DNA of 64,000 nucleotides, from contig CALUYB010000001.1 in the NCBI GenBank assembly GCA_944324905.1, positions 1 to 64,000 of the forward strand, read 5' to 3'. Below, in pieces: positions 11,789 to 25,864 of this stretch (its first letter is position 1; each line of letters starts with the position of its first letter). This stretch comes from Candidatus Gastranaerophilales bacterium (GTDB lineage: Bacteria; Cyanobacteriota; Vampirovibrionia; Gastranaerophilales; Gastranaerophilaceae). The position numbers were made by a program, and so were the translations under genes. The notes under the pieces are model-generated. The model worked only from the letters and a program-made list of their open reading frames with translations, did no database searches and was not told where the DNA came from.

Positions 11789-14266
11789 ATGAAAAACCCT
11801 AATAAGCCTTTATTAAAGGCAATCTTAAGGTTGCTTAATTTGCCTTATTTAAGATACAAAAATAAAACAATACCCCCAAAGTCATCAACTGCCATTTCAG
11901 GTTATTTTAAAAAATGTTTCGCATTTACCCTTGGCGAAATGCTCGTTTCTTTAGTCATTCTATCAATAATACTGGTTACTTTAGCACCTGTTATTACAAA
12001 GCGCGTTGTTGAAAACATCGAAGTTGACGTAGCAGCAAGCAGAAGAAGCGAAAAACTATTCACTTACAACACCTCAAACCCTGACTGCAGCGCAGTTTCA
12101 GGGAAAAATGCACTTGATTGCACTTTTAAAACAGGCTCGGGCGTAAAAAAAGTTAACATTATCATGGTTTCAGGCGGAGGCGGCGGCGCCGGTGCTACAA
12201 ACCCTTACTATGAGTACGGGAAAAAAGACAGCTCAACAGGTACACAAAAAACTATTAATATTACAAATGGGTTAAAAAATGTTAAGATAAGTTATCTCTC
12301 TGGCTCTGGCGGCGGTGGTGGCGGTGGAGCATGGAATGAAAGCGCAGGTGCGGCTCCAACAAGTCAAGCGGATTGTGATAAGTATGATGCGAAATACCTA
12401 ACACCAACACAAAATGGAACATCAACAGGCGTATGTGTTACCAAGTGGAATATTGGGGATATTCCTAGTGCGCCAAATGGAGGGATTGCAACATCTGTTA
12501 CAACTGTATCAACAGGTACACGTTGCTCTGCTAACGCATGCTGCTGGCAAGGAAAAACTGCACACCCATGCGATAGCTCTAGAACTAGTTACAGCGGTTG
12601 CAACAGAACTGTATGCAATTGGTATGCCGGTAATGCTTCATGCCAAGCTCTAGCATACAACGGTACAAAAGCAGGTGATTGGCGATTACCAACTAAAAAT
12701 GAACTTGCTAAGTGGGAAAATAACATTGGTGCAATAAATACAGACAAAGGCGATTACGGCTTGAGGCTCTGTGACGGCGGCTGGGGTGGCGGCGACTGGG
12801 GTTACGGCGCAGCGCACTGCTACGGCAACCGCGCTTGCGACGGGGCTACCAATGATCTCTGCTACACTTGGCAGGTGTGGTCTTCTACACTCACTGGCAG
12901 CAATTACTACTATTCCGACCTGGTCTGGGGTACTTTCTATAATAGCAGCCAGAGTCCTAGCTACGCCGTTTCGGTTCGCTGTGTCCTTGAAGGCGAAGGC
13001 TCGACATATAACTCCTACTCAGGCGGCGGAGGGGGTGCAGCGCCATACTTTAAAGACTACCCCATACCGCAAAATATAATAGATTCCAACATTGGCGGTC
13101 AAATAGTCTTATCAGCCCCATCAGGCGGTTCAGGTGGTGCTGCTGCAAGCTCTAAAGGCTCAAGCGCAAGCAACGGCAATAACGGCTCAGACTCCTACAT
13201 TGCAATTTATGATAAAGACGGAGTTTTAAAATGGGGCTTAAAAGCCTCGGGCGGTAATGGTGGCAAGGGCGCAAGCTCAAGCGCAGGTGGCGCAGGCGGC
13301 GCTCAAAAGGCTGCAAATACTTGTCAAATCTACCAAAACGGCGCATGGACAACCACAAACTGCACAGGCGCAGGTACAAAAGGCACCAATGGTCAAAGTG
13401 TAAGCGACGCCAATGAAACAACCGCAGCCGCAGGCGGAAATGGCGGTGGCTCAATGTATAACACCACTTCACTCTCAGGTGCAGGCGCAGGCGGTAGCGC
13501 AAGCTCGGTCAACGGTTCAAATGGTTCATCATACGGCGCAGGCGGCGGCGGCGGTACAGTAGGCTTTGACTCAAGCGAAAACGCAAAAAAAGGCAAAGGC
13601 GGAAAAGGAGCAAGCGGAATTGCTGAAATCACTTACGATTTAGCTTATCAAGCAGCCGCGGGCGGAGGCGGAGGCGGTGGCGCAGTCCTAGAACTTAAAA
13701 ACATCAGCGTCACACCTTCCACCACCTATACAGTTCGTGTCGGCGGCGGCGGTAATGGCGGAGCCGTTGCAAATAATGGCATTGACGGCGGCGAAAGTAA
13801 AATCACTTTTGGCAGCACAACCTACACCCTAACAGGCGGAAAAGGCGGTAAAGCAGGCACTGCAGCAAGCGCAAGCTCGGCCGTTGCCCATGGTAGTGGC
13901 GGTACAGGCGCGCCAAAACTAAATGTCGGCACATCTGTTGCAGGTGAAAACGGGCAAAACGGCTCAAGCGGTACAATTGACTCAATAGGCGGCTGTGGCG
14001 GAAAATCAGGCACAGGTGGCAAAGGCGGCTGCGGCGCATTATTTACAAATGGCGATAACTGCACCACACTCAGCACTTTTGGCTCAAGCCCCACGTTTTT
14101 ATCGCCCTCAAGCTCATTTAGTGCCTCAGACTACGGCAGCGCAGGCGCAGGCGGCGGTGGCGGCGGATACTCATTTAATACAACCACCTACCCCGACAAC
14201 AACCCCGGATACGGCGGAGACGGGCAGGGCGGCTATGTCTACATCTACTGGATAGAATACAACTAA
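11789..14266 (+). CDS. Variable glycine-rich prepilin-like surface protein 1
   Basis: An 825-residue protein with a long (~50-residue) basic leader, a prepilin peptidase-type site (A/FTLGE, Glu5 present) and a pilin-like hydrophobic helix ending LAPVITKRV. The middle (about residues 180-400) is a Cys-rich domain with DWRLPTKNE, the signature of DUF1566/FISUMP-type C-type-lectin-like folds. It includes a 225-bp variable repeat (about residues 326-400). The C-terminal half is low-complexity Gly-rich, ending with VRVGGGGNGG repeats like phage tail-fibre glycine-rich domains. Start ATG is preceded by CGGAG. Its Gly codons are mostly GGC, unlike the GGT/GGA of the two paralogs, so it is the more diverged copy. 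Probable role: pilus-tip or surface adhesin whose binding face is diversified (inference). Confidence 0.75.
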   Translation: MKNPNKPLLKAILRLLNLPYLRYKNKTIPPKSSTAISGYFKKCFAFTLGEMLVSLVILSIILVTLAPVITKRVVENIEVDVAASRRSEKLFTYNTSNPDCSAVSGKNALDCTFKTGSGVKKVNIIMVSGGGGGAGATNPYYEYGKKDSSTGTQKTINITNGLKNVKISYLSGSGGGGGGGAWNESAGAAPTSQADCDKYDAKYLTPTQNGTSTGVCVTKWNIGDIPSAPNGGIATSVTTVSTGTRCSANACCWQGKTAHPCDSSRTSYSGCNRTVCNWYAGNASCQALAYNGTKAGDWRLPTKNELAKWENNIGAINTDKGDYGLRLCDGGWGGGDWGYGAAHCYGNRACDGATNDLCYTWQVWSSTLTGSNYYYSDLVWGTFYNSSQSPSYAVSVRCVLEGEGSTYNSYSGGGGGAAPYFKDYPIPQNIIDSNIGGQIVLSAPSGGSGGAAASSKGSSASNGNNGSDSYIAIYDKDGVLKWGLKASGGNGGKGASSSAGGAGGAQKAANTCQIYQNGAWTTTNCTGAGTKGTNGQSVSDANETTAAAGGNGGGSMYNTTSLSGAGAGGSASSVNGSNGSSYGAGGGGGTVGFDSSENAKKGKGGKGASGIAEITYDLAYQAAAGGGGGGGAVLELKNISVTPSTTYTVRVGGGGNGGAVANNGIDGGESKITFGSTTYTLTGGKGGKAGTAASASSAVAHGSGGTGAPKLNVGTSVAGENGQNGSSGTIDSIGGCGGKSGTGGKGGCGALFTNGDNCTTLSTFGSSPTFLSPSSSFSASDYGSAGAGGGGGGYSFNTTTYPDNNPGYGGDGQGGYVYIYWIEYN
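12764..12988 (+). other. DGR-like variable repeat VR1
   Basis: The segment runs from the AGGCTCTGTGAC anchor to TCGGTTCGCTGTGTCCT and aligns with the variable parts of two other genes and with the noncoding template at 17118-17330. Framework codons are shared, while codons between TGC and TGCGACGGG (TAC GGC AAC CGC here) are all NNC and differ in every copy. It has a 5-codon Gly/Trp insertion after the first anchor relative to the template. Four Asn codons remain versus 13 in the template. Confidence 0.65.
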
Positions 14267-14347: not shown

Positions 14348-14376
14348 TGGACAATTATTTAGTTAGGTGTTAGAAT
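14348..14376 (+). promoter_or_regulatory. Promoter of the second variable gene
   Basis: TGGACA (14348-14353) and TAGAAT (14371-14376) are separated by exactly 17 bases, and TGT precedes the -10 (extended -10). It is embedded in the 14-base element TTAGGTGTTAGAAT shared with the first variable gene. Confidence 0.6.
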
Positions 14377-14414
14377 ACTTATTAAGTTACGAATTATGTT
14401 CCTGGAGTAAAGAT

Positions 14415-16838
14415 ATGAATTTTAATTTTGGCGCGCCTTTGCGCAAGTTTTTTGCACACCTTAGTTCGCTAAAGTGCAAAAAGGGCTTTACATTAGCCGA
14501 GTTGCTTGTGTCTGTCCTTATAATCTCAATTATTATGGTAGTTTTAGCCCCTGTAATGACAAGAAAACACTCTAACAAAGTAAATGTCGGCGGCGCAGGC
14601 GGCGGCACAGTAACGCGAGAAAGCAGATTGTTTTTGTATAATCCAACCGATCCAAACTGCTCTGCTGTTTCTGGGCAAAATGCACTTGATTGTAACTTTA
14701 CAACAGGAACTGGTGTAAAGAGTGTAAATGTTGTAATGGTATCTGGCGGAGGTGGTGGAGCTGGCGGAACACCTCCAACAGTTGAATATGGTAAAAAACT
14801 TACAGTGACAAATTCTACAATTGGTAGTGCTAAGACTCAAGAAATAACTATAACAAAAAATATGAAAAATGTTGTTGTAAGTTATCTCTCCGGCTCCGGC
14901 GGCGGAGGTGGAGGTGGTGCATGGTCTGAAAGCGCAGGTGGCGCTCCGACAAGTCAGGCGGATTGCGATAAATACGACGCTAAGTTTTTAACAGCAGCTC
15001 AAAACAATGGAACACCAGTCTGCGTTACAAAATATAACATTGGTGACATACCAAACGCAACAAACGGTGGCATAGCAACATCTGTTAAAACTGTTCAAAC
15101 TAACAGGACTTGTTCTGCAAAATCCTGCTGTTGGCAAGGAAAAACAGCAAACCCATGCGATAGCTCTGGAACTAGTTACAGCGGCTGTAATAGAACAGTA
15201 TGCACATGGCACGCCGGCAACGCCTCGTGCCAAGCTCTAGCTTACAGTGGCACAAAAGCAGGGGACTGGAGATTGCCAACTAAAGATGAGATCTCAAAAT
15301 GGGCAAGTAATATTAACACTATTAACACAAATCAAGGCGATAATGGCTTGAGGCTCTGTGACTACTTCAGCGGTTACGGCGCAGCGCGATGCGACAATTA
15401 CCTCGTTTGCGACGGGGCTAGCAGTGATACCTGCTACCCTTTCGAGGTGTGGTCTTCTACACCCAATGGTGGCAAATACTACTTTTTCAACCTGAGCAGT
15501 AGTAGCTTCTATCAGAACAGTCAGTATCCTAGCTACGCCGAGTCGGTTCGCTGTGTCCTAGAAAGTGGTGATTTTTCTACCTACAACTCCTACTCAGGCG
15601 GCGGAGGTAGTGCTGGAGGGTATTTTAAGAATTATCAAATTCCTGAAAGTGTAATTTTAAATAACATTGGAGGAAGAATTGTATTGTATTCTGCTCCAGG
15701 GGCTAAAGGTGGAAATAAAGCAAGTTCAAAAGGAGCTAATGCAAGTAATGGAAGTAGTGGAACAGTATCATATATTGCAATATATAATAAATCAGGGCAG
15801 CAAGTTTGGGGTTTAGAAGCTTCAGGCGGAAACGGAGGAAAAGGAGCGACTGGGTCTAATTATGGCAATGGAGGAAGTAGTGTAAGTACAAATAGCTGTA
15901 AGATATTTCAAAATGGAAGTTGGACAAATACAAGTTGCTCAGGTGTTGGCGGTGCAGGGAATAATGGAAATAAATTACAAGTAACAGATAGTAATACTGC
16001 AGCCGGTGGCGGTGTTGGCGGAGGATCAATGTATAATACAACATCGCTATCCGGAGGTGGTAATGGTGGCAGCTCAAGCTCTGTAAATGGTGGTAACGGG
16101 TCACTTTATGGCTCAGGTGGTGGAGGAGGAACAACAAAAGTTGTTTCTGATGTTGCTACTGCAGGAGCTGGAGGAAAAGGAGCAAATGGAGTAGCTGAGA
16201 TTACATATGATATAACATATGACCCTGCAGCAGGTGGAGGTGGTGGCGGTGGTGCCATGTTAAAGGTTGAAAATATAACTGTTACACCTTCTACTAATTA
16301 CGTTATTCGTGTTGGTGGTGGTGGTAATGGTGGGGCTGTGTCTAATAACGGTTCTGATGGTGGAGAAAGTAGAGTTACTTTTGGTAGTGTAAGTTATAGC
16401 TTAAGTGGTGGTAAAGGTGGTACTGCTGGAACTAGTGCAACTGATACAACTTCTGTTATCCATGGTGTAGGCGGTAATGGTGCTTCTAAATTAAGTGGCG
16501 GAACATCTGTTGCAGGGACTAAGGGTAGTGATGGAAGTGCAGGAGATATTGGCGCAATTGGTGGAAATGGCGGAAAAAGTGGAGTTCAAAGCGAAGGAGG
16601 ATGTGGAGCATTATTTGATAATGGCGGAAGTTGCTCAGCAACCGGTGCTTATGGTTTAAGTCCAGTATTTGTTTCGCCATCTAATATATTTGACGCTGCT
16701 GATTATGGTAAAGCAGGAGCCGGTGGAGGTGGTGGAGGATATGCGTATAATACTACGATGTACCCTACCAACAACCCGGGCTATGGTGGTAACGGGCAAC
16801 ACGGATATGTTTATTTGTATTGGACAGAGTATAATTAA
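14415..16838 (+). CDS. Variable glycine-rich prepilin-like surface protein 2
   Basis: An 807-residue paralog with a 24-residue leader, prepilin site G/FTLAE and pilin-like helix (LLVSVLIISIIMVVLAPVM). Residues about 170-390 form the Cys-rich DUF1566/FISUMP-like domain: CCWQGKTA, SYSGCNRTVC, DWRLPTKDE near 285, then the variable repeat at about 313-381. The rest is Gly-rich with VRVGGGGNGG blocks. ATG 14415 with GGAG upstream is preferred; the frame is open from a GTG at 14367 that lies inside the promoter. Its last ~430 bases and the first ~20 bases after the stop are almost identical to the third paralog, indicating recent duplication or gene conversion. Pseudopilin-type export and surface display are inferred. 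Confidence 0.76.
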   Translation: MNFNFGAPLRKFFAHLSSLKCKKGFTLAELLVSVLIISIIMVVLAPVMTRKHSNKVNVGGAGGGTVTRESRLFLYNPTDPNCSAVSGQNALDCNFTTGTGVKSVNVVMVSGGGGGAGGTPPTVEYGKKLTVTNSTIGSAKTQEITITKNMKNVVVSYLSGSGGGGGGGAWSESAGGAPTSQADCDKYDAKFLTAAQNNGTPVCVTKYNIGDIPNATNGGIATSVKTVQTNRTCSAKSCCWQGKTANPCDSSGTSYSGCNRTVCTWHAGNASCQALAYSGTKAGDWRLPTKDEISKWASNINTINTNQGDNGLRLCDYFSGYGAARCDNYLVCDGASSDTCYPFEVWSSTPNGGKYYFFNLSSSSFYQNSQYPSYAESVRCVLESGDFSTYNSYSGGGGSAGGYFKNYQIPESVILNNIGGRIVLYSAPGAKGGNKASSKGANASNGSSGTVSYIAIYNKSGQQVWGLEASGGNGGKGATGSNYGNGGSSVSTNSCKIFQNGSWTNTSCSGVGGAGNNGNKLQVTDSNTAAGGGVGGGSMYNTTSLSGGGNGGSSSSVNGGNGSLYGSGGGGGTTKVVSDVATAGAGGKGANGVAEITYDITYDPAAGGGGGGGAMLKVENITVTPSTNYVIRVGGGGNGGAVSNNGSDGGESRVTFGSVSYSLSGGKGGTAGTSATDTTSVIHGVGGNGASKLSGGTSVAGTKGSDGSAGDIGAIGGNGGKSGVQSEGGCGALFDNGGSCSATGAYGLSPVFVSPSNIFDAADYGKAGAGGGGGGYAYNTTMYPTNNPGYGGNGQHGYVYLYWTEYN
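15351..15559 (+). other. DGR-like variable repeat VR2
   Basis: This is the variable repeat that best matches the noncoding template. In the first 60 aligned bases (TGTGAC to GACGGG) there are 8 differences, 7 of them at template adenines, the hallmark of adenine-specific DGR mutagenesis. The 3' end from TACGCCGAG to TGTCCT is identical. The central part has about 20 non-A differences, so this exact template did not write it, or it has since diverged. Confidence 0.68.
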
Positions 16839-16861
16839 AGGTTTCGTATCTTAATCTTTTT

Positions 16862-16894
16862 GGGCGCACTCAATAACACATGCGCCCTTTTTTT
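16862..16894 (+). terminator. Rho-independent terminator of the second variable gene
   Basis: GGGCGCA and TGCGCCC form a 7-bp GC-rich stem with a 13-base loop followed by seven T residues. Confidence 0.85.
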
Positions 16895-16909
16895 GCAATA
16901 AATATTACA

Positions 16910-16948
16910 ATATAATTGTTACATTTTTGACCAACATAACAATTATAT
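16910..16948. repeat. Inverted repeat overlapping the template-RNA promoter
   Basis: The arms ATATAATTGTTA (16910-16921) and TAACAATTATAT (16937-16948) are perfect 12-bp complements with a 15-base centre holding TTGACC. It is placed like an operator over the -35/spacer of the predicted RNA promoter. Confidence 0.5.
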
Positions 16949-16956
16949 GTTAATAT
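16927..16956 (+). promoter_or_regulatory. Predicted promoter of the template RNA
   Basis: TTGACC (16927-16932) and TAATAT (16951-16956) are separated by 18 bases. The predicted start, about 16962, is the first base of the 5' arm of the inverted repeat that closes the RNA. Confidence 0.45.
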
Positions 16957-16961
16957 TTTTC

Positions 16962-17356
16962 AAACACGTCTCCCCGGAGTGCAAATTATTTACGGATGTT
17001 TGCAGAGTGGGAACTAAACTCGTTTGAGATAGCTTTAATAATTAAGCTTATTTTTTGTACTTTTACAAATACCATATGTCGGGGTCTATAACGATATATC
17101 ATATTAAACTCTCAAGAAGGCTTTGTGACAACAACAGCGGTTACGGCGCAGCCAGATGCAACAATTACAACGTTTGCGACGGGTCGAACAATGGTAACTG
17201 TTAACCACAATATGTCTGGTCGGCTACTACCAGCGGTAGCAATGTTTACGACTTCAACCTGAATAGCGGTTCTTTCAACGGTCCGAATTCTACCTCCGCT
17301 CGTTACGCCGAGTCGGTTCGCTGTGTCCTGGTGTTTAGTATAGACGTGTTTTTATA
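16962..17356 (+). ncRNA. Putative structured RNA carrying a DGR-like template repeat
   Basis: A noncoding ~390-base locus between the second variable gene and ahcY. The 5' arm AAACACGTCT (16962-16971) is the perfect reverse complement of AGACGTGTTT (17342-17351), so the RNA ends can pair; the 3' arm runs into a T-rich tract (TTTTTATATTTT). The 156-base 5' part has several local stems: TGCAAA/TTTGCA (16980-17004), AGCTT/AAGCT (17031-17048) and CCCCG/CGGGG (16972-16976 with 17080-17084). The template repeat fills 17118-17330. A promoter fits the predicted start exactly. No ORF of meaningful size spans it and an in-frame TAA interrupts the repeat. Retron-like end pairing is noticed, but homology of the core is to DGR variable repeats. 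The RNA and its role are predictions. Confidence 0.55.
17118..17330 (+). other. DGR-like template repeat (TR), Asn-codon rich, noncoding
   Basis: The sequence is homologous to the variable repeats only within AGGCTTTGTGAC...TGTGTCCTG; flanks on both sides are unrelated to the variable genes. Read in the variable-repeat frame it has 69 codons with 13 AAC/AAT, against 4, 4 and 3 in VR1-VR3, plus one in-frame TAA. Template AAC/AAT positions align with the hypervariable codons. The 3' end TCGGTTCGCTGTGTCCT is invariant in all four copies and would be the initiation-of-mutagenic-homing end. Caveat: many non-A differences in the centre suggest a divergent or decaying template; a remnant of a fourth variable gene is the alternative. 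Confidence 0.62.
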
Positions 17357-17358
17357 TT

Positions 17359-18633
<1,275 letters not shown>

Positions 18634-18659
18634 TCATCCTCATGCTGTAAATAATAAAA

Positions 18660-18692
18660 ATATTATCACAAAAAATATGTTTGTGATAATAT
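18660..18692. promoter_or_regulatory. Palindrome with divergent -10 boxes between ahcY and pckA
   Basis: Perfect 13-bp arms (ATATTATCACAAA and TTTGTGATAATAT) surround a 7-base centre. Each arm read outward contains TGTGATAAT, which resembles an extended -10, so the same palindrome can supply one promoter for ahcY (leader ~25 bases) and one for pckA (leader ~63 bases). It could also be bound by a dimeric regulator. Confidence 0.5.
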
Positions 18693-18759
18693 AGAAAGTA
18701 GAAATTTACGAGAGTATAGCGACATATATACATATAGTAGACAAAATAGGAGAAAATTT

Positions 18760-20409
18760 ATGTCAACAGTTGAGTACTTTACAAATTCAGATGAGTTGAA
18801 AAAACTCTATTCTGCTGCACGTGCAACAATTACCGCTCCTTTTTACGGTAACAACGTTGAACATGTAAAATCAGTTTCAGAAGCTTACAAATTAGCTAAA
18901 AACAGCCCCGGAACAGTTGAATTGACAGGCATGCCTATTTATATGCCTGAAAAAATCGGTCTTCCTCAAGGTGCTAATCAATTACTTTTCAACGATGGTA
19001 CAGTTGTTGGACGTTGCGCAGCTGCAAGAAAAATCGTTGGCGAACCAAATTGCGATTTAGCTTACTTATTACCAATTATTCGTGAAGCAGTTTACAATAC
19101 TCGCGACAGACTAATGTATAGAACAGAAGCTGTTGTAGGTTTAGAAGAAGACTTCATGGTAAAAGCTCACCTTTTAATTCCTGAAGGCTTTGAAAATGTT
19201 ATGTATTCTTGGATGTTAAACTTCCAATACATCAATGAATGCTATGCTCAAATGTATGAAAATTCAAGAGCTATTCCAGATGGAGATATTTTTGTATTTT
19301 CTGATCCTGATTGGACTCACCCTGACTTTCCATACGGCTTAACTTTCTTTGATCCTACACACAACTGCGCTGCAATTTTGGGTATGAGATACTTTGGTGA
19401 ACACAAAAAAGGAACTCTTACTCTTGCTTGGGGTTGCGCTGCTCGTAACGGTTACGCTTCTTGCCATGGTGGTATGAAACGCTACAACCTTGACGGCGGA
19501 AAATCTTTCCAAGTTGCAGTATTTGGTTTGTCAGGTTCAGGTAAATCAACAATTACTCACGCTAAACACAACAACAAATACGACATCACAGTACTTCACG
19601 ATGACGCATTTGTAATTAACGTTCATGACAAATACACAATCGCATTAGAACCTGCTTACTTTGATAAAACTGCAGACTACCCAATGGGTTGCGATGACAA
19701 CAAATATATCTTAACTCAACAAAACGCAGGTGTTATCGAAGGAGCTGACGGTAAAACATACTCTATTACAGAAGACATCAGAAACGGCAACGGTCGTGCG
19801 GTTAAATCAAAACTTTGGTCGCCAAACAGAGTTGATAGAATTGACGAACCTATTAACGCTATTTTCTGGTTAATGAAAGACCCTACAATTCCTCCTGTAC
19901 TTAAATTATCAGGTGCGTCATTAGGTTCTGCTATGGGTGCAACACTTGCTACAAAACGCTCAAGCGCTGAAAGACTTGCAAAAGGCGTTGACCCCAATGC
20001 TTTGGTTGTTGAGCCTTACGCTAACCCATTCAGAGTTTATCCTCTTGAAATGGATTACACAAGATTTAAACAATTAATCGAAGATGGCGTTGATTGCTAC
20101 ATCTTAAATACAGGTGAGTTTATGGGTACAAAAGTACAACCAAAACACACTTTAGGTATTATTGAAGCTATCGTTGAAGGAAGTGCTAAATTCCACAAAT
20201 GGGAAAACTTCTCAGACATCGAAATTATGGATGTTGAAGGCTTTGACGCTTCTTTTACTAACAAAGAATACGCTCAACAATTTGTTGCTCGTATGCAAGA
20301 TCGTATTGAATTTGTTAAATCAAGAGAAACTGAAAAAGCAGGTATTGATAAACTTCCTGCTGACGCTCTTGAAGCTCTTGAAGCAGTTATTAAACAAGCT
20401 AGCTGCTAA
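18760..20409 (+). CDS. pckA: Phosphoenolpyruvate carboxykinase (ATP-type)
   Basis: A 549-residue enzyme interconverting oxaloacetate + ATP with PEP + CO2 + ADP. The nucleotide-binding P-loop GLSGSGKST is at about residue 255 and the kinase-2 HDDAF at about 280; the PEPCK substrate segments (WGCAARNGYASCHGG upstream) are clear. Codons are biased toward a limited set (GCT, CAA, AAA), suggesting high expression. AGGAG precedes the ATG. With ppdK elsewhere in the window it indicates a PEP-centred anaerobic carbon node. A strong terminator follows. Confidence 0.95.
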   Translation: MSTVEYFTNSDELKKLYSAARATITAPFYGNNVEHVKSVSEAYKLAKNSPGTVELTGMPIYMPEKIGLPQGANQLLFNDGTVVGRCAAARKIVGEPNCDLAYLLPIIREAVYNTRDRLMYRTEAVVGLEEDFMVKAHLLIPEGFENVMYSWMLNFQYINECYAQMYENSRAIPDGDIFVFSDPDWTHPDFPYGLTFFDPTHNCAAILGMRYFGEHKKGTLTLAWGCAARNGYASCHGGMKRYNLDGGKSFQVAVFGLSGSGKSTITHAKHNNKYDITVLHDDAFVINVHDKYTIALEPAYFDKTADYPMGCDDNKYILTQQNAGVIEGADGKTYSITEDIRNGNGRAVKSKLWSPNRVDRIDEPINAIFWLMKDPTIPPVLKLSGASLGSAMGATLATKRSSAERLAKGVDPNALVVEPYANPFRVYPLEMDYTRFKQLIEDGVDCYILNTGEFMGTKVQPKHTLGIIEAIVEGSAKFHKWENFSDIEIMDVEGFDASFTNKEYAQQFVARMQDRIEFVKSRETEKAGIDKLPADALEALEAVIKQASC

Positions 20410-20430
20410 TAAAGACTTATTAAGTCTACA

Positions 20431-20465
20431 AAACCGCCCCTGCTCTGTGCGAGGCGGTTTTTTTA
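20431..20465 (+). terminator. Rho-independent terminator of pckA
   Basis: AAACCGCC and GGCGGTTT pair around a 14-base loop and are followed by a T-run. Confidence 0.88.
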
Positions 20466-20476
20466 TATTCAAATTT

Positions 20477-20689
20477 TTATTCCATAAAAAACTTATGAGG
20501 CTCAGTATTTAAAACCTCAGCAATAGTAAAAATAGTTTTAACACTGGGATTGAATATTCCCCGTTCAATACCTGAAATGTGATCGACAGATAATGAACAT
20601 TTAATAGCCAACTGCAGTTGTGTTAAACCTTTCTCCTTGCGATATTTTTTAATGTTTTTTTGAAGAATTTCAAAGTAGCGATTTGCCAT
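20477..20689 (-). CDS. Small XRE-family (HTH_3) regulator
   Basis: A 70-residue protein made almost entirely of a Cro/C1-type helix-turn-helix (KKYRKEKGLTQLQLAIKC, SVDHISGIERGIFNPSVKTI). No effector domain follows. It is divergent from the third variable prepilin-like gene, and the 88-base gap between them contains a 25-bp perfect palindrome overlapping a TATAAT. The obvious hypothesis is that it controls that gene and itself. Such tiny XRE proteins are common in mobile or phase-variable loci. Confidence 0.82.
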   Translation of the reverse strand: MANRYFEILQKNIKKYRKEKGLTQLQLAIKCSLSVDHISGIERGIFNPSVKTIFTIAEVLNTEPHKFFME

Positions 20690-20716
20690 AATTTAATTTT
20701 AGTGTTAATGTATTTG

Positions 20717-20743
20717 TATAATCCGTAGTGACACTACGGATTA
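20717..20743 (+). promoter_or_regulatory. Palindromic operator overlapping the -10 of the third variable gene
   Basis: The arms TAATCCGTAGTG and CACTACGGATTA are perfect 12-bp complements around a single A (20719-20743). The 5' arm overlaps a perfect TATAAT (20717-20722). Position between the divergent XRE gene and the variable gene suits a repressor operator; as RNA it would form a hairpin in the 5' leader instead. Confidence 0.6.
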
Positions 20744-20777
20744 CATTACTTAAAGTAATAATTTAGAAGGATAAGAT

Positions 20778-23135
20778 ATGAAGAAGTACGCGTTTACACT
20801 CGCGGAGTTATTGGTGTCTACACTAATAATCTCTATTATTATGGTAGTTTTAGCCCCTGTAATTACAAAAAGGGTCACAAGTAATATTAATGTTTCAGGG
20901 GGAGGAAGTACTAAAAAAGAAAGTAAACTTTTTTTGTATAATCCAACCGATCCAAACTGCTCTGCTGTTGCAGGGCAAAATGCTCTTGATTGTACTTTTA
21001 GAACAGGCTCTGGTGTTAAAAGTATTAGCGTTGTCATGGTCTCAGGTGGAGGCGGAGGTGCTGGAGCTACAACTCCTAATTATGACTATGGAAAAAAATT
21101 AACTGTAACAAATTCAACAATTGGCAGTGCTAAAACTCAAGAGTTTACAATTACAAAAGGCATGAAAAACTTTACTGTTACATATCTCTCTGGCTCAGGT
21201 GGTGGAGGTGGAGGCGGCGCATGGGCTGAAAGCGCAGGTGCAGCTCCGACAAGTCAGGCGGATTGCGATAAGTATGATGCTAAGTTTTTAACTGCTTCTC
21301 AAAATGGTGGAAAAGCAGTATGTGTTACAAAATGGAATATTGGTGATATTCCATCAGCCACAAATGGAGGGATTGCAACATCTGTTACAACTGGATCAAT
21401 ATATTCATATTGCTCAGCTAACGCATGCTGTTGGCAAGGAAGAACTGCATACGCATGCGATAACTCTACTAGTTACAGCGGTTGCAATAGAACACTATGC
21501 ACTTGGTACGCTGGTAACGCTTCATGTCAAGCATTAGCATACAATGGTACAAAAGCAGGGGACTGGAGATTGCCAACAAAAAATGAGATGTCAAAATGGG
21601 CAAGTAATATTAACACTATTAACAAAAACCAAGGTGATAACGGCTTGAGACTCTGTGACGGCCGCAGCGGTTACGGCGCAGAGCTATGCACCTACACCTC
21701 CAGTTGCCGCGGGGCTGACAATGGTAGTGGCTGCGACGCGGACGTGGTGTGGTCTTTTACACCTAATGGCAGCAATTACTACTGTTCCTCACTGTTCTTT
21801 GGTAGCTTCGATCAGGGCAGCCGCGTTCCTCGCTCCGCCCATTCGGTTCGCTGTGTCCTTGAAGGCGAAGGCTCGACATATAACTCCTACTCAGGCGGTG
21901 GAGGTAGTGCTGGAGGATATTTCAAGAATTATCAAATTCCTGAAAGTGTAATTTCAAATAACATTGGAGGAAGAATTGTATTGTATTCTGCTCCGGGGGC
22001 AAAAGGTGGAAATAAAGCAAGTTCATCTGGATCTAACGCGAGCAATGGTAACAATGGTTCTGAATCATACATAGCACTGTATGACGCGGATGGAAATTTA
22101 AAATGGGGATTAAAAGCTTCAGGTGGAAATGGAGGAAAGGGAGCGACTGGGTCTACTTTTGGTAATGGTGGAAGTAGTGTAAGTACAAATAGTTGTAAGA
22201 TATTTCAAAATGGAAGTTGGGCAAATACAAGCTGTTCCGGTGTTGGTGGTGCAGGGAATAATGGAAATAAATTACAAGTAACAGATAGTAATACTGCAGC
22301 CGGTGGCGGTGTTGGCGGAGGATCAATGTATAATACAACATCGCTATCCGGAGGTGGTAATGGTGGTAGCTCAAGTTCTGAAGTTGGTGGTAATGGTTCA
22401 CTTTATGGCTCAGGTGGTGGAGGAGGAACAACAAAAGTTGTTTCTGATGTTGCAACCGCAGGAGCAGGAGGAAAAGGAGCAAATGGAGTAGCAGAGATTA
22501 CATATGACATAGTTTACGACCCTGCTGCAGGCGGAGGCGGCGGCGGTGGTGCCATGTTAAAAGTTGAAAATATTACAGTAACTCCTTCTACTAATTATGT
22601 TATTCGTGTTGGTGGCGGTGGTAATGGTGGAGCTGTGTCTAATAATGGCTCTAACGGTGGAGAAAGTAGAGTTACTTTTGGTAGTGTAAGTTATAGTTTA
22701 AGTGGTGGTAAAGGTGGTACTGCTGGAACTAGCGCAAGTGCAACTACTTCTGTTGTCCATGGTGTAGGTGGAGCGGGTGCTTCTAAATTAAGTACCGGGA
22801 CATCTGTTGCAGGGGCTAAGGGTAGTGATGGAAGTGCAGGAGATATTGGCGCAATTGGTGGAAATGGCGGGAAAAGTGGAGTTCAAAGCGAAGGAGGCTG
22901 CGGTGCATTATTTGATAATGGCGGAAGTTGCTCAGCAACCGGTGCATATGGTTTAAGTCCAGTATTTGTTTCACCATCTAATATATTTGACGCTGCTGAT
23001 TATGGCAAAGCAGGAGCAGGTGGAGGCGGCGGAGGATATGCGTATAATACTACGATGTATCCGACAAATAACCCTGGATATGGTGGCAACGGGCAACACG
23101 GATATGTTTATTTGTATTGGACAGAGTACAACTAA
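20778..23135 (+). CDS. Variable glycine-rich prepilin-like surface protein 3
   Basis: A 785-residue paralog with the shortest leader: MKKYA then FTLAE, i.e. a 5-residue prepilin leader, followed by the pilin-like helix. The Cys-rich DUF1566/FISUMP-like domain occupies about residues 150-370, with DWRLPTKNE and the variable repeat at about 291-361. The remainder is Gly-rich and almost identical in its last ~150 residues to paralog 2. AGAAGGA lies upstream of the ATG. It has its own regulator (XRE) and operator, unlike paralogs 1 and 2, which share a promoter element. Direct repetition with paralog 2 means homologous recombination could delete ahcY-pckA-XRE or exchange variable domains. Confidence 0.76.
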   Translation: MKKYAFTLAELLVSTLIISIIMVVLAPVITKRVTSNINVSGGGSTKKESKLFLYNPTDPNCSAVAGQNALDCTFRTGSGVKSISVVMVSGGGGGAGATTPNYDYGKKLTVTNSTIGSAKTQEFTITKGMKNFTVTYLSGSGGGGGGGAWAESAGAAPTSQADCDKYDAKFLTASQNGGKAVCVTKWNIGDIPSATNGGIATSVTTGSIYSYCSANACCWQGRTAYACDNSTSYSGCNRTLCTWYAGNASCQALAYNGTKAGDWRLPTKNEMSKWASNINTINKNQGDNGLRLCDGRSGYGAELCTYTSSCRGADNGSGCDADVVWSFTPNGSNYYCSSLFFGSFDQGSRVPRSAHSVRCVLEGEGSTYNSYSGGGGSAGGYFKNYQIPESVISNNIGGRIVLYSAPGAKGGNKASSSGSNASNGNNGSESYIALYDADGNLKWGLKASGGNGGKGATGSTFGNGGSSVSTNSCKIFQNGSWANTSCSGVGGAGNNGNKLQVTDSNTAAGGGVGGGSMYNTTSLSGGGNGGSSSSEVGGNGSLYGSGGGGGTTKVVSDVATAGAGGKGANGVAEITYDIVYDPAAGGGGGGGAMLKVENITVTPSTNYVIRVGGGGNGGAVSNNGSNGGESRVTFGSVSYSLSGGKGGTAGTSASATTSVVHGVGGAGASKLSTGTSVAGAKGSDGSAGDIGAIGGNGGKSGVQSEGGCGALFDNGGSCSATGAYGLSPVFVSPSNIFDAADYGKAGAGGGGGGYAYNTTMYPTNNPGYGGNGQHGYVYLYWTEYN
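21648..21859 (+). other. DGR-like variable repeat VR3
   Basis: The most diverged of the three variable repeats. Between the two conserved TGC codons it has ACC TAC ACC TCC where the template has AAC AAT TAC AAC. Only 3 Asn codons remain against 13 in the template. It differs at both A and non-A positions (about 11 versus 8 in the first 60 bases), so the 17.1-kb template alone does not explain it. The 3' anchor TCGGTTCGCTGTGTCCT is intact. Confidence 0.6.
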
Positions 23136-23166
23136 ATTAACTAAAGGTTTCGTATCTTAATTACAA

Positions 23167-23203
23167 GGGGTGCACTCCAGGAATATTTGCACCCCGTTTT
23201 TTT
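23167..23203 (+). terminator. Terminator of the third variable gene
   Basis: GGGGTGCA and TGCACCCC form a perfect 8-bp stem followed by G and seven T residues. Confidence 0.88.
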
Positions 23204-23221
23204 AAAAAAATTTAAAAGGCA

Positions 23222-23262
23222 CAAAAAAAGGACGGGAAAAATTCACCGCCCTTTTTTATATG
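23222..23262 (-). terminator. Terminator of pgk
   Basis: On the minus strand GGGCGG pairs with CCGTCC (one mismatch) with A-rich and T-rich flanks, just beyond the pgk stop; convergent with the previous terminator. Confidence 0.65.
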
Positions 23263-23272
23263 GTTAATTTTA

Positions 23273-24469
23273 TTAATCCAGTGCGTCAACTCCGGGGAGA
23301 ACTTTGCCTTCGATAAATTCCAAAGATGCGCCGCCGCCTGTTGAAATATGTGTAAAGTCATCGCCGTTGCAGAATTTTTTAGCGGCACTAACTGAGTCAC
23401 CGCCACCTACAACAGATACAGCACCTGCTTTTGTTGCTTCAACAATAGCTTTTAGAACTGCTTTTGTGCCTTGCGCAAATTTAGGATTTTCAAACGCGCC
23501 TACAGGGCCGTTCATAAGGATTGTTTTTGACTTTTTAATAACATCTTCAAAAGCTTTTTGAGTATTTGGACCAGCATCAACCCCTTCAAAACCGTCAGGA
23601 ATTTCATTTACCGGAACGACTTTATTTGTGCCGTTGCCTGAAAAGTCATCTGTAACAAGGACATCAGTTGCCATAATAAGATTAACGCCTTTGTCTTTAG
23701 CTTTCTTTTCAATAGCACGCGCAACTTCCATTTGATCATCTTCATGGATAGAATTGCCAATTTTGCCGCCGTTAGCTTTTACAAAAGTGTATGCCATACC
23801 GCCGCCAACGATTAGGTTGTCAACTTTATCTAAAAGATTTTCTAAAACACCGATTTTAGATGAAATTTTTGCACCGCCGACAACAGCTGTAAATGGTCTT
23901 TGAGGATTATTTAAAAGACCGCCCAAAGCGTTTAATTCTTTTTCCATCAATAGCCCTGCAACAGCCGGTTTTAAAACGTGAGCAAGTTTAGCTGTTGATG
24001 TGTGTTTTCTGTGAGCTGCACCAAAAGCGTCATTTACATAAAAATCGCCCAATTTTGCAAGCTCATTTGCAAAAGTCATATCATCATCTTTTGCTTCTTC
24101 TTCTTTATAAAAACGAATGTTTTCTAAAAGTGCAACCTGACCGTCTTTTAAGTCTTTTAATTCTTCATCTGCACCTTTGCCAACAGGTTTTGAAACAAAT
24201 AAAACATCTTCGCCCAAAACTTTTGACATATATTTTGCAACAGGAGCAAGAGAAAATTCTTCTTTCCATTCGCCTTTTGGACGACCCAAGTGAGCCATAA
24301 GAATAATTTTTGCGCCTTTATCTTTAAGCATTTTAACTGTAGGTAAAATTGCTTTAATTCTTGTGTCATCGGTTACATTTTTGTTTTCATCCAAAGGAAC
24401 GTTAACATCAACCCTAACTAGGGCGCGTTTACCTTGGATGTTTTCTAAATCTTTAATTGATTTTTTCAT
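23273..24469 (-). CDS. pgk: Phosphoglycerate kinase
   Basis: A 398-residue glycolytic enzyme transferring phosphate from 1,3-bisphosphoglycerate to ADP. The N-terminal RVDVNVPLDE substrate-binding segment, the AHLGRPKG motif and the C-terminal GGGDSVSAA nucleotide-binding loop are all present, and length is standard. AGGGG lies before the ATG. It is transcribed alone, convergent with the third variable gene and divergent from the antiporter-family gene. No gap gene is adjacent. Confidence 0.96.
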   Translation of the reverse strand: MKKSIKDLENIQGKRALVRVDVNVPLDENKNVTDDTRIKAILPTVKMLKDKGAKIILMAHLGRPKGEWKEEFSLAPVAKYMSKVLGEDVLFVSKPVGKGADEELKDLKDGQVALLENIRFYKEEEAKDDDMTFANELAKLGDFYVNDAFGAAHRKHTSTAKLAHVLKPAVAGLLMEKELNALGGLLNNPQRPFTAVVGGAKISSKIGVLENLLDKVDNLIVGGGMAYTFVKANGGKIGNSIHEDDQMEVARAIEKKAKDKGVNLIMATDVLVTDDFSGNGTNKVVPVNEIPDGFEGVDAGPNTQKAFEDVIKKSKTILMNGPVGAFENPKFAQGTKAVLKAIVEATKAGAVSVVGGGDSVSAAKKFCNGDDFTHISTGGGASLEFIEGKVLPGVDALD

Positions 24470-24556
24470 TTTATAGTCCCCTATAATATTTCTAACGGCT
24501 TTATTTTAAGTCAAAAAAAGGATATTTACAATATTTTGTGTTAAAATTCAAAAGTT

Positions 24557-25864
24557 ATGGAATTAAACCCTGTAATAGTTTCAGTTATTTTGCTCTGCAT
24601 TTTATGCCTAATGCGGGTAAATGTGCTGCTTTCGCTTATTATTTCAGCCATTGCGGCGGGTTTGTGTGCGCATATGAGCATTGATAAAATCATGAACACT
24701 TTTATTTCAGGGATGGGCGCAAACTCTGAAACGGCGCTCAGCTACATACTTTTAGGGGCATTTGCCGCGGCGATGACACACACCGGACTTGCGCAAATCC
24801 TTGCAAGGCGCATAGCTATTGTAATTAAAGATAATAAATATCTGCTTTTGTTTATTATCGGCGTAATTGCTGTTATGTCGCAAAATTTAATTCCTATACA
24901 CATTGCTTTTATACCGATTTTAATCCCTCCGCTTTTAGGCGTTATGAACAAATTGGAGCTTGACAGAAGATGTGTTGCGACAACTCTTGCCTTTGGTTTA
25001 AAAGCGCCCTACATTGCAATTCCTGCGGGTTTTGGTTTAATTTTTCAGGGCTTGATTGCGGAAAATATGACACAAAGCGGAATTGAAGTGTTAAAAACAG
25101 ATGTCTGGAAAAGCAGCTGGTTCTTGGGTTTTGCCATGTTTATAGGGCTCTTGGTTTCAATATTTATAACTTACAGAAAACCCCGTAAATACAGGGATTT
25201 AGACCCAATTTATGATGAAAAAAGTTTTTCTGAAAAATCTCTGCGTTTGCGTCGAAAACATTACATAACATTATTGGGCGCGTTTGCAACCCTTGCTGTT
25301 CAACTCTGGAGCGGTTCTTTACCACTTGGTGCGCTTGTAGGGTTAGGAATAATTTTTGGTGCAAAAGCCGTCAGGAAAAGGCACATGGACAAATTAATTA
25401 ACGAAGGTATCGGGCTTATGGGCTATGTCGCCTTTGTAATGCTTATAGCGGCAGGGTTTGCGCTTGTTTTAAAAGAAACAGGCGGGGTAGAAAGCCTCCT
25501 GAATTGGATTTTACCCTATATGCAAAATTCTAAAATAATTTCTGTTACACTTATGCTTTTAATCGGGCTTTTAATTACTATGGGGATTGGCACATCCTTT
25601 GGTACGATACCAATTTTGGCGGTTTTGTTTGTGCCTCTTTGCGCAAAATTAGGACTTAGCACATCTGCCTCAATAATAGTGCTTGCAGCAGCTGCAGCCT
25701 TAGGCGACGCCGGTTCTCCCGCATCAGACACAACTCTTGGCCCAACAGCCGGTTTAAATGCCGACGGGCAGCATAATCACATTCAAGACACTTGCATACC
25801 AACGTTTTTGCACTTTAATATTGCACTAATACTGGCTGCTGTTATTGCGGTGTATATTTTTTAA
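24557..25864 (+). CDS. Na+/H+ antiporter-family membrane protein (NhaC/YuiF-like)
   Basis: A 435-residue polytopic membrane protein of the ion-transporter superfamily. Family-like features are the GMGANSETALSYILLGAFAAA segment, the IPIHIAFIPILIPPLL helix and the C-terminal GDAGSPASDTTLGPT motif typical of YuiF/NhaC-type carriers. It may exchange Na+ or carry an amino acid. TTAAAAT with an extended TG lies about 10 bases before the ATG and there is no Shine-Dalgarno sequence, so the mRNA may be nearly leaderless. It is followed by pgi after 44 bases. Confidence 0.75.
   Translation: MELNPVIVSVILLCILCLMRVNVLLSLIISAIAAGLCAHMSIDKIMNTFISGMGANSETALSYILLGAFAAAMTHTGLAQILARRIAIVIKDNKYLLLFIIGVIAVMSQNLIPIHIAFIPILIPPLLGVMNKLELDRRCVATTLAFGLKAPYIAIPAGFGLIFQGLIAENMTQSGIEVLKTDVWKSSWFLGFAMFIGLLVSIFITYRKPRKYRDLDPIYDEKSFSEKSLRLRRKHYITLLGAFATLAVQLWSGSLPLGALVGLGIIFGAKAVRKRHMDKLINEGIGLMGYVAFVMLIAAGFALVLKETGGVESLLNWILPYMQNSKIISVTLMLLIGLLITMGIGTSFGTIPILAVLFVPLCAKLGLSTSASIIVLAAAAALGDAGSPASDTTLGPTAGLNADGQHNHIQDTCIPTFLHFNIALILAAVIAVYIF

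Follow-up and report, generated by a model that had tools for sequence, protein, structure and literature searches.

A DGR template repeat with a structured 5′ leader, very probably intact and likely acting in trans, in a Candidatus Gastranaerophilales genome

In the DGR of the Bordetella phage BPP-1, the structured TR RNA that recruits bRT-Avd and primes the cDNA is the spacer 3′ of the TR, and a stem-loop 3′ of the IMH in the VR is not strictly required (PMC12875486). The use of TRs in trans has already been reported in Thiohalocapsa PB-PSB1, in which, according to the sections of that paper covered here, VRs agree at every non-A site with a TR located elsewhere (PMC10907252). Remote targets were invisible to the method of a large DGR survey (PMC8144416). 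Here we describe a template repeat, TR1, in a 64,000-nucleotide stretch of a Candidatus Gastranaerophilales genome (the window; positions 1-64,000 of contig CALUYB010000001.1, to which C1 coordinates also refer unless another genome is named). G000 denotes the window's own genome, G003 a sister species and the other G numbers relatives; where relatives are named, they are gut MAGs of Candidatus Gastranaerophilales. Feature coordinates are collected in Table 1.

Table 1. Positions of the template repeats, the leader and tail elements and the paralogous genes
Feature	Position	Strand	Details
Paralogue of DGR target type	11789..14266	+	Lcl_C/CLec, Gly-rich; VR-like region 12764-12988; non-A mismatches to TR1
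Paralogue of DGR target type	14367..16838	+	N_methyl pilin-like start, Lcl_C, Gly-rich; VR-like region 15351-15560
Promoter-like site	16927..16956	+	TTGACC, 18 nt, TG-TAATAT; consensus scan; ends 7 nt before leader
Structured 5′ leader (~155 nt)	16963..17117	+	hairpins P2a/P2b, P5; helix P4 (TTGAGA/TCTCAA)
P1, leader 5′ strand	16963-16971	+	covariation
Model R1 match in leader	16967-17051	+	100.3 bits
P3, leader 5′ strand	17014-17019	+	covariation
TR1, template repeat	17118..17331	+	A-rich core; in-frame TAA at 17202-17204
Short 3′ tail	17332..17357	+	GTTTAG (17333-17338) pairs with leader CTAAAC
3′ tail, second pairing	17342-17350	+	AGACGTGTT with leader AACACGTCT; T-run after
Paralogue of DGR target type	20778..23135	+	VR-like region 21648-21860
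TR3, short TR-like cassette without A-rich core	C1 about 208560-208760	minus	beside RT
TR2	C1:208826-209038	minus	beside RT

TR1 and its distant VR

The exact repeat span of TR1 is noncoding, and around the locus its homology is confined to the variable portions (VRs) of the three paralogous genes listed in Table 1. Alignment bore out the original prediction on this point, and a recount agreed on 13 AAC/AAT codons for the segment against 4, 4 and 3 for these genes, as well as on the in-frame TAA. The first 60 bases were said to carry seven of eight differences from the second gene on template adenines; the seven were indeed found, but the total is nine. When the whole genome was searched with TR1, nine further places matched, and the A-only signature was seen solely against a VR at C1:210254-210466. 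Identity between this VR and TR1 is 93%: of the 51 TR adenines, 14 differ, and all 162 remaining bases agree (hypergeometric P=4.4e-10). Codons change from AAC to TAC, CAC, AGC, ACC and GGC and from TAA to TTT, and the reading frame is preserved in the VR. The two sequences share a common 3′ end (the IMH, TCGGTTCGCTGTGTCCTGG) and diverge directly after it; just 3′ of the IMH in the VR, no hairpin above shuffles was found (z -1.0). As assembled, the VR gene and the RT lie on the same contig as TR1, at distances of 193 kb and 195 kb, respectively. Within the assembly, no exact TR was found for seven other VRs of the genome.

The gene holding the distant VR encodes 800 aa with an N-methyl pilin-like start, a weak Lcl_C/CLec region and Gly-rich sequence, and the VR falls inside the weak Lcl_C match (E 1e-5, below the Pfam cut-off). 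It adjoins the genes for the RT and Avd. The RT (P0001), the genome's sole RVT_1 gene, carries the DGR-type motifs IGNLTSQ and YVDD. Its best matches are the solved chain 8ub7, which we take to be the BPP-1 RT, and the PHROG family phrog_1423 'Reverse transcriptase', and its best hits in NCBIfam and PADLOC are other RT groups, those in NCBIfam being far below cut-off. The gene next to the RT was identified as Avd (phrog_3206 'Avd protein of DGR', E 3e-20), with a Pfam bAvd match below the Pfam cut-off. All phage RTs in viral contigs were less than 60% identical to this RT.

The same relation between template and target was observed in two relatives, in which the TR carries the same leader and the matching TR is beside the RT: the TR/VR pair differs at 21/62 A versus 1/147 non-A positions in G003, and at 19/56 versus 1/161 in G253. 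In addition, contig C19 of G003 is collinear with window positions 16047-25030, at 91.5% over this 9-kb stretch, and holds at the syntenic place a noncoding TR, not an intact coding gene, whose leader is 98.7% identical to that of TR1. Because TR1 differs strictly at adenines from a VR adjoining a DGR-type RT and Avd, we are highly confident that it is, as predicted, a bona fide DGR template repeat. The earlier suggestion that it might be decaying fared less well, since its non-A sites match the distant VR perfectly and its leader is conserved above the surrounding DNA, which argues that the repeat is intact.

A structured leader and its distribution

The leader that precedes TR1 folds into hairpins, and these covary. 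Among 12 sequences, double changes were seen in 13 of 17 pairs, and the observed score exceeded that of every shuffle. Among 26 distinct sequences, whose alignment was fitted to the model and is hence biased towards structure, double changes were found in 17/17 pairs, with 112 doubly changed cells versus at most 22 in slid controls. The tail pairs back to the leader, with the partners CTAAAC/GTTTAG in TR1, TTTAAACTC/GAGTTTAAA in TR3 and CAAAATTC/GAATTTTG in another genus, and tail and leader paired better with their own partners than after swapping (P3, permutation P 0.0014; P1, 0.024; values that are indicative, as the sequences are related). Conservation 3′ of TR1 ends about 26 nt on, and the structured module is the one on the 5′ side. 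A search of window positions 16700-17500 against Rfam gave no match even at E 1. The promoter-like site is near-identical in the G003 TR at C19; the consensus scan itself found 3 sites versus 2.2 expected, which is weak on its own. TR3 combines leader hairpins with an IMH-like end that is followed by an intrinsic-type terminator, and it is conserved in relatives.

Model R1 found matches in 10 of 288 genomes from the family, spread over 4 genera, and nine of these ten have an RT or, in G005, a broken RT remnant. The match in G115 (E 0.006), a genome with no RT, was taken as chance. Outside the family, no leader was found among 383 genomes of the order, nor in Clostridia and other distant RT loci, and a 21-nt leader pattern had no exact counterpart in viral contigs. 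G253, from another genus, holds leader, TR, RT and VR together. In G005, the place that corresponds by synteny to TR1 holds a broken RT remnant (C26:3575-3835) overlapping a short leader/TR relic, a sign that a DGR stood there formerly.

Origin and mode of action of TR1

TR1 and TR2 are nearly identical in their leaders (154/155 aligned bases, 99.4%) and tails (24/24), whereas their cores are 81.5% identical. A similar pattern was observed against the two TRs of G003: leaders are 98-99% identical and cores 78-86%, with the TR1 core at 84% to the RT-side TR and 78% to the syntenic TR, and the TR2 core at 82% and 86%, respectively. The cores of the TRs therefore seem to be replaced over time between conserved flanks, given the contrast between leaders and cores and given that the TR1 core is closest to the RT-side TR of G003. 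TR2 was also considered as a template, and it gave no A-only match to any VR in the assembly.

Proximity and homology to TR1 make the three window genes natural candidates for its targets, and the original prediction had treated them as its VR partners, which would leave the distant match secondary. However, over the full length their VRs differ from TR1 at all four bases, with 26/51 A and 39/153 non-A differences in the 12k gene, 19/51 and 30/153 in the 15k gene, and 25/49 and 45/156 in the 21k gene. These 30-45 non-A mismatches with each gene rule out TR1 as their template and leave that reading very improbable. Moreover, the VR of the 15k gene is closer to the syntenic TR of G003 (19/56 A, 13/154 non-A), the closest TR known for it, than to TR1. 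Because of this resemblance, it is as if an earlier core at the window site once served the neighbouring 15k gene, and a reading that is contradicted for the present template may be true of that earlier core. An in-frame insertion of 15 nt, absent from the others, lies close to the 5′ end of the VR-like region in the 12k gene. It is even harder to regard TR1 as a dead gene fragment or gene-conversion scrap whose A-bias arose by chance. Such an origin would fit a noncoding segment with a stop, but it is refuted by the A-only changes (P=4e-10), by a leader more constrained than its surroundings, by the covarying RNA structure and by the same arrangement in other genera, and we give it virtually no weight.

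TR1 is likely to act in trans, provided that the assembly is correct. The copying could nevertheless have taken place in cis, if the core once lay beside the RT and was later recombined via leader and tail, or misassembled. The cores look swapped relative to G003, the exact junctions common to TR1 and TR2 measure 43 and 45 nt (the shared block ends at 17357), and in G003 and G253 the matching TR adjoins the RT; with cores apparently exchanged between exact junctions, the copying could therefore date from a core beside the RT. On the other hand, an assembler swap would need k below about 45, a 6-nt indel and a C/T difference, which lie no more than about 65 nt from the core, remain joined to the flank in the window, and the distal locus of G003 too has an intact TR. 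We thus regard copying in cis as unlikely.

Taken together, we propose that leader, TR and tail, the last pairing back to the leader, would form a self-contained RNA unit that is transcribed alone from the local promoter and may be active at present. Encoded at a distance of 195 kb, the RT and Avd would bind this unit via the leader, and the RNA would be reverse-transcribed with errors opposite A. The resulting cDNA would replace the VR (CLec/Lcl_C) of the surface-type gene beside the RT, with the gene's own 3′ end retained.

Cassette arrays in relatives and comparison with known systems

No array of cassettes was found in the window's own genome. In G004, 31-33 noncoding, VR/TR-like tandem units of ~265 bp (C1:341270-349770) lie beside the RT and the target gene, with a leader at the head and TR3 at the end. 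All 31 measured units can be read through in the CLec frame, and in 29 the length modulo 3 is kept; in G079, 9/9 units keep length modulo 3 and are open, and in G050, 30/31 keep it. Arrays extend to at least 56 CLec cassettes in G050 (on five contigs) and 10 in G079, in another genus, and several of these cassettes stand behind a leader match. Since the frame is kept without start codons, the sequences point to the units being silent donors. Recent A-mutated copying of units from one another was also considered; most are too diverged for this, and near-identical pairs are few.

The expressed VR of G004 equals the array unit 348475-348688 over 214 nt except for two substitutions, both A to T, and the target gene keeps its own 3′ end beside this match. 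Both RT copying and ordinary gene conversion would fit, two changes being too few to tell them apart, and the identity is compatible with either direction of copying. From this match and the retained 3′ end, we tentatively suggest that the DGR RT might have two modes that use one RNA module, namely mutagenesis from A-rich TRs and switching of A-poor silent cassettes. In the second mode, a retro-cassette switching that we put forward with equal reserve, silent units behind the leader would be reverse-transcribed into the expressed gene.

The RT-adjacent target gene of G003, G004, G006 and G012 lacks one T at the 3′ end of the VR (TTCGGTTCGC to TTCGGTCGC or similar), which shifts the frame, and the downstream frame is open. 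This shorter form recurs in the TR3 of G000, G003, G004 and G013, and the RT-adjacent target gene of G000 is in frame. This one-T frameshift could represent phase variation. Several relatives' contigs stop within about 2 kb of the RT, and these ends may reflect unassembled cassette arrays.

In its RT and Avd, A-specific change from TR to VR, CLec target and retained 3′ end of the VR, the system resembles the BPP-1 DGR. Its layout differs because the structured RNA of BPP-1 lies 3′ of the TR; in the present system the conserved structure precedes the TR, conservation on the 3′ side spans only about 25 nt, and TR1 is not followed by a BPP-1-type structured spacer. In Thiohalocapsa PB-PSB1, as far as the sections covered describe it, duplicated or transposon-broken DGR loci share RT and TR (PMC10907252), whereas in the present genome individual TR cassettes carrying a conserved leader are scattered and share a single RT; neither a leader RNA nor an array of cassettes is mentioned in those sections. 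Cyanobacterial DGRs with remote VRs likewise feature numerous scattered CLec paralogues whose VRs resemble TRs (PMC7517822), and a term search of that paper returned remote targets and no dispersed TRs. The arrays of the relatives, in which silent cassettes that keep their frame lie next to a single expressed gene carrying one of them, recall silent-cassette systems such as Borrelia vls (PMC11499132). Unlike vls, they sit behind a DGR TR leader beside an RT, and their copying may therefore be by retrohoming. In the literature searched, which included few subscription journals, we found no description of either the 5′ RNA module or the leader-headed silent arrays.

At this locus a DGR template takes the form of a dispersed RNA cassette that stands on its own outside the RT operon and has a covarying 5′ structure, a layout unlike that of BPP-1. 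The leader offers a handle for orphan TRs that RT-centred surveys have missed. In the relatives, where the same leader heads the silent arrays, hypermutation by a DGR meets antigenic variation of the cassette type, which opens to experiment the question of whether stored variants, too, can be switched by a DGR RT.
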